Of a stretch of 64,000 bases of DNA, positions 60,177 to 63,795 are shown one piece after another. The translations under genes were made by a program, and so were the position numbers. Position 1 is the stretch's first letter; each line of letters opens with the position of its first letter. This DNA is from Balneolaceae bacterium (GTDB taxonomy: Bacteria; Bacteroidota; Rhodothermia; Balneolales; Balneolaceae), in the NCBI GenBank assembly GCA_006969905.1, contig CP030887.1, positions 868,001-932,000 on the forward strand, read 5' to 3'. The notes below the pieces were generated by a model that made no database searches, was not told where the DNA came from, and worked only from the letters and a program-made list of their open reading frames with translations.

Positions 60177-61115
60177 TCAACTTTCTAACATCTTTTTAAG
60201 AAGTTCATTTCTTCTTTCTATCAAATCATGTGGAGATAAAATTTTTATAGAAGAACCAAACTGTAACAGCCATTGATTTATAAATCCAAGATTATCAAAA
60301 AGAAATGACGCCTTAATTTTTTTAGATTTTATTTCTTTTTTACTAATTATTTTAGCCGGCAAATTGGCCTCAAATCGCTCAAAATCGCCTTCATCGACCA
60401 GTACCTCCACTTTTTGTGAAGATTCATTAAATCTAAAAATTAACCCCTCTATTGTTATTTTCTCATTTTTAGAAAATTTTTCATCGAGAATTTTAACTGC
60501 ATCCATTTTGTCAAGTATAAAATTTCTTATTTCTCCCCTTAGATGAGAAAACCCAATTACGTTCCAATGGTCTTCATAAAAAACTAAAATATAGGGGTCT
60601 ATTTTTCGAATCTTTTTCTCCCCACTTGCAGAAGAATACTTGAATTCGATTCTTCTTTTTTGGGAAACAGAACTGCTGATTAAGTACCAGTTCCCACCCT
60701 TCTTCTTTTCGGAACCAAACTTTCCATATGGGTCAACAATTGTGTTCTCTTGAAGTGAAGACATGAATTCTTTAAGCTCTCCCGGAAGAACATTTTGTAT
60801 CTTTACCTCAACTCCCTTTGCATCATCTACCATTTGTTTGTCTACCTGGGATTTAACAAAATTGAGCCCCACTATTATCGTCGCAAGCTCCTGAGTGCTA
60901 AACATTAACGGCGGTATCTTATAGCCCGGTATTACTCCATAACCACTATATTTATCCCAAGTAATCGGCACATTTATCTTTTGTAAAGCATTGAAATCTC
61001 TAAATATAGTTCTCCTGCTAACCCCGAAGTGTTCCGCTAATTCATCTACTGTTTTCCGCTTCCCGCCCTGCTGAATTAAGAGCATGAGCATCAATCTTCT
61101 TTCTGAACTATTCAT
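60177..61115 (-). CDS. WYL-domain transcriptional regulator (HTH_11-WYL)
   Basis: The protein has 312 residues from ATG 61115 (MNSSERRLMLMLLIQQGGKR), preferred over an in-frame start at 61160 that lies deep in rsmG. The N-terminal winged helix (HTH_11) has VDELAEHFGVSRRTIFRDFN and WDKYSGYGVIPGYKIPPLMF. The central WYL domain (about 140-210) has RRIEFKYSSASGEKKIRKID and YEDHWNVIGFSHLRGEIRNF, and a WCX-like C-terminal region follows. Such regulators sense nucleic acid or nucleotide ligands and often control defence or DNA-damage genes. It overlaps the rsmG end by 8 nt. Confidence 0.9.
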   Translation of the reverse strand: MNSSERRLMLMLLIQQGGKRKTVDELAEHFGVSRRTIFRDFNALQKINVPITWDKYSGYGVIPGYKIPPLMFSTQELATIIVGLNFVKSQVDKQMVDDAKGVEVKIQNVLPGELKEFMSSLQENTIVDPYGKFGSEKKKGGNWYLISSSVSQKRRIEFKYSSASGEKKIRKIDPYILVFYEDHWNVIGFSHLRGEIRNFILDKMDAVKILDEKFSKNEKITIEGLIFRFNESSQKVEVLVDEGDFERFEANLPAKIISKKEIKSKKIKASFLFDNLGFINQWLLQFGSSIKILSPHDLIERRNELLKKMLES

Positions 61116-61767
61116 ACAACCTCTCAACTTGAACAACTGCTTTTCCTTTATAAAAATCACTCATAAAGGGGGCATCAAGTTTTATGATCTCTGCTTTTAA
61201 TGGAGCCTCTATTTCATTTAACTCCTTTACTGTCTCACCAGCCCCTTTTAAAAAAACTATTGCCCCCCATTTTTTTGGCTTTAGCATTGTATATAACTCG
61301 TTAACCTTAAAGGCGTGTTTGGAAATCACACACGTTTCCTGGGAAAGTGATTGAGTCTCGATTGAGCCCATAAGAATGCCCACTCTTTCTTTTAGATCCA
61401 GCTTATTAATTATATCATTTGCAGCATACATTTTTTTTGAAACAATATCATTCAGGTTCACTACGGAGTTTTCTTTTATAACAGCCAGGGGGATCCCTGG
61501 CAATCCCCCACCTGAACCCGCATCTAAAAAACTGGTTGAGTCCTGTACTGCCCTTGCCAATGATATACAGACAGAATGCCGGATATGATTTAATATAGTT
61601 TCACGTGAAACGCCCCTGCTAATAAGGTTTATTCTATCATTCCACCATAACAGCAAGTCTGCATATGTGAATAAAATCTGTTCTTTTGATTTAACAGTGC
61701 TGAGAATATCTGTCCACTCCGGCTCCGAGATATCTCTGGTTGCTATATTGTGTTTCACGTGAAACAC
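61108..61767 (-). CDS. rsmG: 16S rRNA (guanine527-N7)-methyltransferase RsmG (GidB)
   Basis: The protein has 219 residues. The start codon is GTG (61765-61767), and the first codons spelling MFHVKH lie within a parS palindrome. The SAM-binding motif is FLDAGSGGGLPGIPLA. NDRINLISRG and the C-terminal FLKGAGETVKELNE are family features. It methylates G527 of 16S rRNA, and its loss gives low-level streptomycin resistance. It starts 2 nt after the mnmG stop (mnmG-rsmG operon), and a second parS core lies at 61598-61611. Confidence 0.95.
   Translation of the reverse strand: MFHVKHNIATRDISEPEWTDILSTVKSKEQILFTYADLLLWWNDRINLISRGVSRETILNHIRHSVCISLARAVQDSTSFLDAGSGGGLPGIPLAVIKENSVVNLNDIVSKKMYAANDIINKLDLKERVGILMGSIETQSLSQETCVISKHAFKVNELYTMLKPKKWGAIVFLKGAGETVKELNEIEAPLKAEIIKLDAPFMSDFYKGKAVVQVERLYE
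61598..61611. other. parS centromere site, 14-bp core
   Basis: GTTTCACGTGAAAC matches the ParB/Noc-type parS core perfectly; the two outermost bases (61597 and 61612) differ from the 16-bp consensus. It lies within the rsmG coding frame. Confidence 0.75.
61751..61766. other. parS centromere site, perfect 16-mer
   Basis: TGTTTCACGTGAAACA is identical to the bacterial parS consensus bound by ParB. It overlaps the rsmG start codon and encodes its N-terminus. Placed 140 bp from the second site and next to mnmG-rsmG, it is typical of an origin-proximal centromere. Confidence 0.9.
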
Positions 61768-61769
61768 AA

Positions 61770-63653
61770 TTATGCTTTAAGGTAAACCATCAGCACGGCA
61801 ATGTCGCTGGCAGATACTCCGCTAATCCTGCTTGCCTGACCAATAGTTTCCGGGCGTATCTTCGACATTTTTGCGTAACCCTCGGATGAAAGACTTTTTA
61901 TCTTCGAGTAGTCTAGGCTTTCAGGAATAGGTGAATTCTCTTTTTTACTTAACTCCTCTACCATTTCGTATTCCTTTTGAATATAGCCCTCATACTTGAT
62001 TTGAATTTCCGTCTGTTCCAAAGAGTATTTCTCCTCCGATATTCCAAAAATGGTTTTTCTAAGCCCTTCATCCGCACTTATAAGATCGTTGAGATTAACC
62101 TGCGGCCTTGTTAAAACTGTTTTTGCCTTTACGGGTTGATTAAGTCCCGTAGTTCCTTTTTCGTTTAGCATTTCATTCATCTTCTCCGGCCTTACAGTAT
62201 AGGAGCTCAACAGATCAATAATTTCACCAACAGCCTTTCTTTTTACTGTTACCTTATCAAGCCTTTCTTTAGAAGCAAGCCCTATTTTGTAGCCAATTTC
62301 TGTAAGCCTTAAATCCGCATTATCTTGTCTTAGCAAGATTCTGTGCTCTGCCCTTGAAGTAAACATCCTATAGGGCTCTTCAGTGCCCTTATTGATTAAA
62401 TCATCAATTAAAACACCAATGTAAGCCTCAGATCTTTTAAGAATCAGCGGTTCATTTTCCTCTGCTTTTCTGGCGGCATTAATACCAGCCATTAAGCCCT
62501 GACATGCCGCCTCTTCATAACCGGTTGTTCCATTTATTTGTCCCGCAAAGAAAAGCCCTTCCACCAATTTTGTTTCTAATGATCGTTTTAGCTGGTGTGG
62601 TGGGAAGTAGTCATACTCTATGGCATATCCCGGGCGAAGCATCACCACTTCCTCAAAGCCAGGTATTGTTTGTAGTGCTTTGTGCTGAACGTCTTCCGGC
62701 AAAGAAGTAGAAAAACCATTTAAATACATTTCATAGGTATTCCAACCTTCGGGCTCTAAAAACAATTGGTGCCGGTCCCGCTCCGCAAAACGATTAATCT
62801 TGTCCTCAATACTGGGACAATACCTTGGTCCAATGGATTTTATTCTACCATTAAACATAGGGCTTCGATCAAAACCTGTTTTTAATACCTCATGAACATG
62901 TTCATTTGTATAGCCAATCCAACATGTTAATTGGTCTTTTTTGGGTATCAGGGATTCACTTAAAAATGAAAATGGGCTTGGCTCATCATCACCCTCCTGG
63001 ATTTCCAATTTTGAATAATCTATACTTCTTCCATCAACACGAGGTGGGGTTCCTGTTTTCAATCGCCCTACTTCGAAGCCATTATTTTCCAAAGCAGCAG
63101 AAATTCCCACCGATGCCCTCTCTCCAGACCGCCCCCCTCCATAGTTCGCATCCCCAATATGTATCAGTCCGTTCAAAAAAGTTCCGCTTGTAAGCACAAC
63201 TGAACTTGAATAAAAAATCTGCCCTGTCTGTGTTACAACCCCCTCTACACTTCCTTTCTCTATTAGCAAATCTACTACGTTATCTTGTCTAAAGTAAAGA
63301 TTATCAATGTCTTCCAGGCTTTCTCTCATCATTTGGGCGTAAAGCATTCTGTCGCTCTGGCAGCGGGGACTCCACATTGCAGGCCCCTTACTTCGATTCA
63401 ACATCTTAAATTGTACAGCTGACTTATCACTTACAATCCCCGACAACCCTCCCAAAGCGTCTATTTCCCTAACAAGCTGACCCTTAGCAATACCGCCCAT
63501 TGCAGGATTACAGGACATCTTTGCAATGGCCTCCAGGTTCATTGTGATCAGCAAGGTTTTTGCACCTAACTTTGCCGCAGCGCCTGCAGCCTCACTACCC
63601 GCGTGCCCTGCCCCAACAACAATCACATCATATTTTGGATAAATTGAAGACAT
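61770..63653 (-). CDS. mnmG: tRNA uridine-5-carboxymethylaminomethyl modification enzyme MnmG (GidA)
   Basis: The protein has 627 residues. The FAD-binding motif is [81 protein letters not shown] and [23 protein letters not shown] are diagnostic, and the C-terminal helical region ends in [14 protein letters not shown]. With MnmE it modifies wobble U34 of tRNAs. It lies in an operon with rsmG, downstream of tRNA-Asp. Confidence 0.98.
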
Positions 63654-63718: not shown

Positions 63719-63721
63719 TTG

Positions 63722-63795
63722 CGATCCGGAAGGGACTCGAACCCTCGACCTCCTGCGTGACAGGCAGGCGTTCTAACCAACTGAACTACCGGACC
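63722..63795 (-). tRNA. tRNA-Asp (anticodon GTC)
   Basis: A 74-nt cloverleaf is readable on the minus strand. The acceptor is GGTCCGG/CCGGATC with one G-U pair and discriminator G. The D-arm is GTTC...GAAC with an AGTTGGTTA loop. The anticodon arm is CCTGC-CTGTCAC-GCAGG with anticodon GTC, and the T-arm is GAGGG-TTCGAGT-CCCTT. The discriminator G and GTC anticodon are both Asp identity elements. CCA is not encoded. Confidence 0.97.

Follow-up and report, generated by a model that had tools for sequence, protein, structure and literature searches.

Two candidate parS sites within the rsmG coding sequence, near the predicted replication origin of a Balneolaceae bacterium

Results

Two palindromes inside rsmG

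The window analysed is a stretch of 64,000 nucleotides, positions 868,001–932,000 of a single contig of 3,489,855 bases; genes and palindromes of this region are given below in window coordinates, the origin, dnaA and parAB in contig coordinates. Both palindromes lie inside rsmG (gidB; 61108–61767, minus strand), encoding the 16S rRNA m7G527 methyltransferase. Its product scored 68.9 bits against TIGR00138 (E=4.4e-19), under the curated cut-off of 99.5 for that model, and exceeded the cut-off of PF02527, for which it was the sole GidB match in the genome. Directly upstream and in the same direction is mnmG (gidA; 61770–63653, minus strand; TIGR00136, E=1e-259), just upstream of which a tRNA-Asp (GTC) is found at 63721–63795. 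At the other side, a gene for a putative HTH/WYL-like regulator (60177–61112, minus strand) overlaps the end of rsmG by a few bases. It was assigned by reading of the sequence, the WYL assignment having no support from any family model tested, and it occupies the place that parA has in other bacteria with the gene order mnmG-rsmG-parA-parB.

The first palindrome (site 1, 61751–61766) is a perfect 16-bp one, TGTTTCACGTGAAACA, and encodes (V)FHVKH at the 5' end of rsmG. The second (site 2, 61597–61612), spaced from it by 154 bp, has the perfect 14-bp core GTTTCACGTGAAAC at 61598–61611 and encodes VSRET within the RsmG fold. Site 1 matches the canonical 16-bp parS consensus TGTTNCACGTGAAACA exactly. 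Site 2 is exact over the central 14 bp, and read as a 16-mer it has two mismatches to the consensus, one at each outer base.

Over the whole contig, the 16-mer TGTTTCACGTGAAACA occurred once and the 14-bp core twice, both copies being in rsmG, and no match was obtained genome-wide with a control in which the pattern was reversed. No further exact parS site was found on the whole 3.49-Mb chromosome. From the base composition (40% GC), the 14-mer is expected at about 0.015 copies per genome, and chance therefore does not account for two copies separated by 154 bp. The original prediction, made from the window alone, placed a 16-bp palindrome at 61751–61766 and a second core at 61598–61611 in the same gene, and held that two such palindromes within 170 bp could not be fortuitous. 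Both sequences proved exact, the second over 14 bp, the first is present in a single copy genome-wide, and the argument on chance is borne out by the expected number of copies. Rather than being scattered over the chromosome, exact sites were confined to rsmG. The only other match within two mismatches, at 1,287,863, has two mismatches and an altered CACGTG core; it was rejected as being at chance level, about 0.9 such matches being expected.

Synonymous codons are frozen at the palindromes

A codon alignment was made with 32 genomes of the family. For site 2, the codons GTT TCA CGT GAA showed no synonymous change among the 32 genomes: valine and glutamate, each present in 32 genomes, were always written GTT and GAA, and serine and arginine, each present in 28, were always TCA and CGT. 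In site 1, valine was GTG in 28/28. A single synonymous codon was used in 5 of 7 parS columns, versus none of 67 other conserved degenerate columns (Fisher p=1.3e-6). Relatedness of the genomes cannot explain this contrast, because all columns share one tree. At site 2 the sole changes observed alter the protein, namely S to P and R to H; site 1 shows a K to E change. The R to H change was found in four genomes, including G012 and G030. S to P, like K to E, maps to the N position that the published parS consensus contains (PMC4409726). Conversely, no case of an intact peptide with a palindrome destroyed by synonymous change was found at site 2 in the 32 genomes. Frozen synonymous codons, exceptions that alter the protein and free variation elsewhere point, taken together, to selection on the DNA. 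The double role as coding sequence and centromere that had been proposed for this gene is supported by the frozen codons, with ParB as the presumed ligand.

If FHVK and VSRET were simply conserved sequences of the RsmG protein, the palindromes would be a by-product of the peptides. VSRET does belong to a region of the fold that is conserved and free of insertions. However, this explanation is hardly tenable in view of the lack of synonymous change in GTT TCA CGT GAA, when other conserved codons use several synonyms. Moreover, the palindrome was kept while the peptide changed, the motifs are absent from the RsmG of Clostridia, and their positions shift between families.

parS in rsmG throughout the order

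Among 59 genomes of the same order, rsmG was detectable in 53, belonging to five families, and the gene was read in all 53, the studied one included. A parS site or a one-mismatch variant was present inside the rsmG reading frame in 53/53 genomes, and nearly all of them had two or three copies in or near the gene. Four different locations within rsmG were observed, depending on the family: an N-terminal FHVK or FHVE, VSRET following NLVSR, VSRET around residue 15, and a loop in the middle of the gene with MFHVKH. The family with the mid-gene MFHVKH has a second parS copy about 1.2–1.3 kb downstream. Within the family of the studied genome, site 1 was at the same place with 0–1 mismatch in 28/32 genomes, and palindromes with 0–1 mismatch were retained over more than 20 genera. 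In G030 and G012 (L112, L114), both rsmG sites share one base variant, in opposite orientation (TGTTTCATGTGAAACA / TGTTTCACATGAAACA); this pairing suggests that a concerted shift of ParB preference may have taken place in that genus. In a Bacteroidota-wide sample taken outside the class, parS was at most 2.4 kb from rsmG in 13 of the 42 genomes with listed sites, and elsewhere or on another contig in the remaining ones.

Site 1 and the start codon of rsmG

The GTG taken as the rsmG start codon (61765–61767, minus strand) shares two bases with the edge of the palindrome. A second, in-frame GTG (61756–61758, minus strand) lies at the centre of site 1 and is an alternative start. Of the 28 family genomes with site 1, 16 have the central GTG as first in-frame start codon, and 12 an ATG or GTG at the palindrome edge, so the start of rsmG may be the central GTG rather than the edge one. 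The idea that the palindrome is fused to the start codon is thus right in kind, the overlap with a GTG being real, but in the majority of these relatives the first start codon available is the central one.

It is conceivable, though improbable, that the conserved placement of the central GTG at the start of rsmG allows translation or transcription of the gene to be gated by bound ParB; if true, such gating would couple 16S rRNA methylation to origin segregation. A broader proposal is that the sites are chiefly a ParB-operated control of rsmG, by repression or timing at the start codon, with segregation secondary. The overlap of site 1 with the edge start codon, and the central GTG as first possible start in over half of the relatives, would fit with it. 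Against it, the parS site of family f4 is mid-gene and its downstream copy is also unable to act on the start, site 2 is intragenic here yet equally conserved, and what remains constant across families is the location in rsmG. We consider this proposal quite improbable, and retain segregation as the likely main role of the sites.

Position relative to the replication origin

For the GC skew, 40 stretches of 20 kb each and one continuous stretch of 112 kb were used. Its sign changed between 932–952 kb and 960–980 kb, and reversed near 2.7 Mb in the sampled stretches; the two sign changes are half a chromosome apart, as expected of an origin and a terminus. At base level, the cumulative skew minimum is at 955,882, where it abuts an AT-rich intergenic region (955,360–955,782, 27% GC). 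It carries an exact DnaA box (TTATCCACA) at 955,634, another with one mismatch at 955,705, and some weaker boxes. This intergenic region (L046:10360-10782) is a putative oriC. It is not beside dnaA, located at 1.301 Mb, 345 kb from the inferred origin. The two palindromes are 26 kb from the skew minimum, which is 0.75% of the 3.49-Mb chromosome. With an origin placed by sampled GC skew and consensus DnaA boxes, the sites therefore appear to be origin-proximal, as had been predicted. In G043, a closed genome from another family, the parS of rsmG at 255.2 kb is similarly about 12.6 kb from a local skew minimum, at 267.8 kb.

A canonical ParA/ParB pair, distant from the palindromes

The genome encodes a single protein with a ParB_N domain (E=2.5e-34), whose gene directly follows that of a ParA with the motif KGGVGKTTT, so that the search for partner genes called for by the original prediction yielded one canonical pair. 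Proximity of parAB to parS is usual for a canonical ParABS centromere, but does not define it. Here the two are not adjacent: the parAB operon (3,143,271–3,145,013; L042:9271-11013) is about 1.27 Mb from the palindromes, the contig being taken as circular. Its distance to the GC-skew maximum, on the terminus side, is about 0.44 Mb. Only two of the genomes compared, the studied one and G043, had rsmG and parB on one contig, and in these they were at least 0.67 Mb apart.

ParB carries the CTPase motifs GERRLRA and ENIQR. A residue-by-residue match to Noc gave R, T, Q and G at the four specificity positions. At two of these positions R and G are absolutely conserved in ParB, whereas NBS-type specificity (Noc) involves Q, K, K and R, at positions 173, 179, 184 and 201 (PMC7383237). 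As judged from its sequence, the ParB of this genome is of the parS type (R-x-x-G), with the parS-contacting residues present. Nucleoid occlusion by a Noc protein acting on NBS sites was considered and rejected, given R, T, Q, G in place of Q-K-K-R; the score against the Noc model TIGR04285 was 240.9 and did not reach the cut-off of 315. Smc is present as well (1035.6 bits).

The displacement of parAB by 1.27 Mb could be taken to mean that the palindromes are a coincidence, or a non-functional relic of an ancestral parS since replaced by other sites. This is very improbable, as they are kept with 0–1 mismatch over so many genera, and the genome has no other exact site.

Discussion

Our analysis supports the reading of these palindromes as canonical, origin-proximal and protein-coding parS sites. 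They are very likely the main ParB-loading sites of the chromosome, embedded in rsmG near the origin, with the ParA and ParB encoded by parAB segregating the origins; judging from the genome-wide scan, they are probably its only strong ones. ParB produced from the distant operon would load as CTP-dependent clamps at both sites, and would then slide over the neighbouring origin region. ParA would next separate the duplicated origins, and Smc is a likely partner, presumably loaded in the same process. The same DNA would serve both as protein code and as centromere, the peptides FHVK and VSRET being dictated by selection acting on the DNA.

Intragenic parS sites are ordinary, and parS in gidB/rsmG has already been published, the genome studied here being a well-preserved case. 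In Thermus thermophilus HB27, the chromosomal parSc is inside gidB, and ParB binding to it was demonstrated by EMSA (PMC4409726). As in the present genome, a 16-bp consensus parS is in the gidB coding sequence near oriC (PMC4409726), but it is one site, immediately upstream of parA, whereas the present genome has a pair spaced by 154 bp and its parAB operon at a distance of 1.27 Mb. In Pseudomonas aeruginosa, 9 of the 10 sites parS1–10 are within coding sequences, and one origin-proximal site suffices (PMC4368675). Origin-proximal parS and sites within coding sequences are common to both organisms, whereas P. aeruginosa has four origin-proximal and six dispersed sites (PMC4368675), and only two, both in rsmG, are found here.

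The cross-phylum comparison was a sample of named genomes, not a census. In alpha- and zetaproteobacterial mnmG-rsmG-parA-parB loci (L152, L153, L161, L169, L185), parAB is directly downstream of rsmG, whereas it is elsewhere in the Balneolales studied. Among the matches listed, the parS of these loci was in one of three places: the 5' part of rsmG, the beginning of mnmG or the beginning of parA. The first two of these places were those seen in several Alphaproteobacteria. In L152 and L169, parS is written as VSRET in the N-terminal part of RsmG, like here. MnmG and ParA of the zetaproteobacterium (L153) both begin with MFHVKH, parS covering the two start codons (L153:1107-1122 and L153:3533-3548), and a similar MnmG start was observed in Methylocystis (L191).

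What is less usual in the Balneolales is that parS is apart from both parAB and dnaA, and nevertheless strictly retained in rsmG across the order. Here the centromere stays at the origin while parAB and dnaA are located elsewhere, so that parS, and not the par operon, is the origin-tied part of the system. This locus offers a natural example of a centromere written in a protein gene, in which selection on the DNA is evident at the codon level, and it designates rsmG as the place to look for the centromere throughout the order Balneolales.
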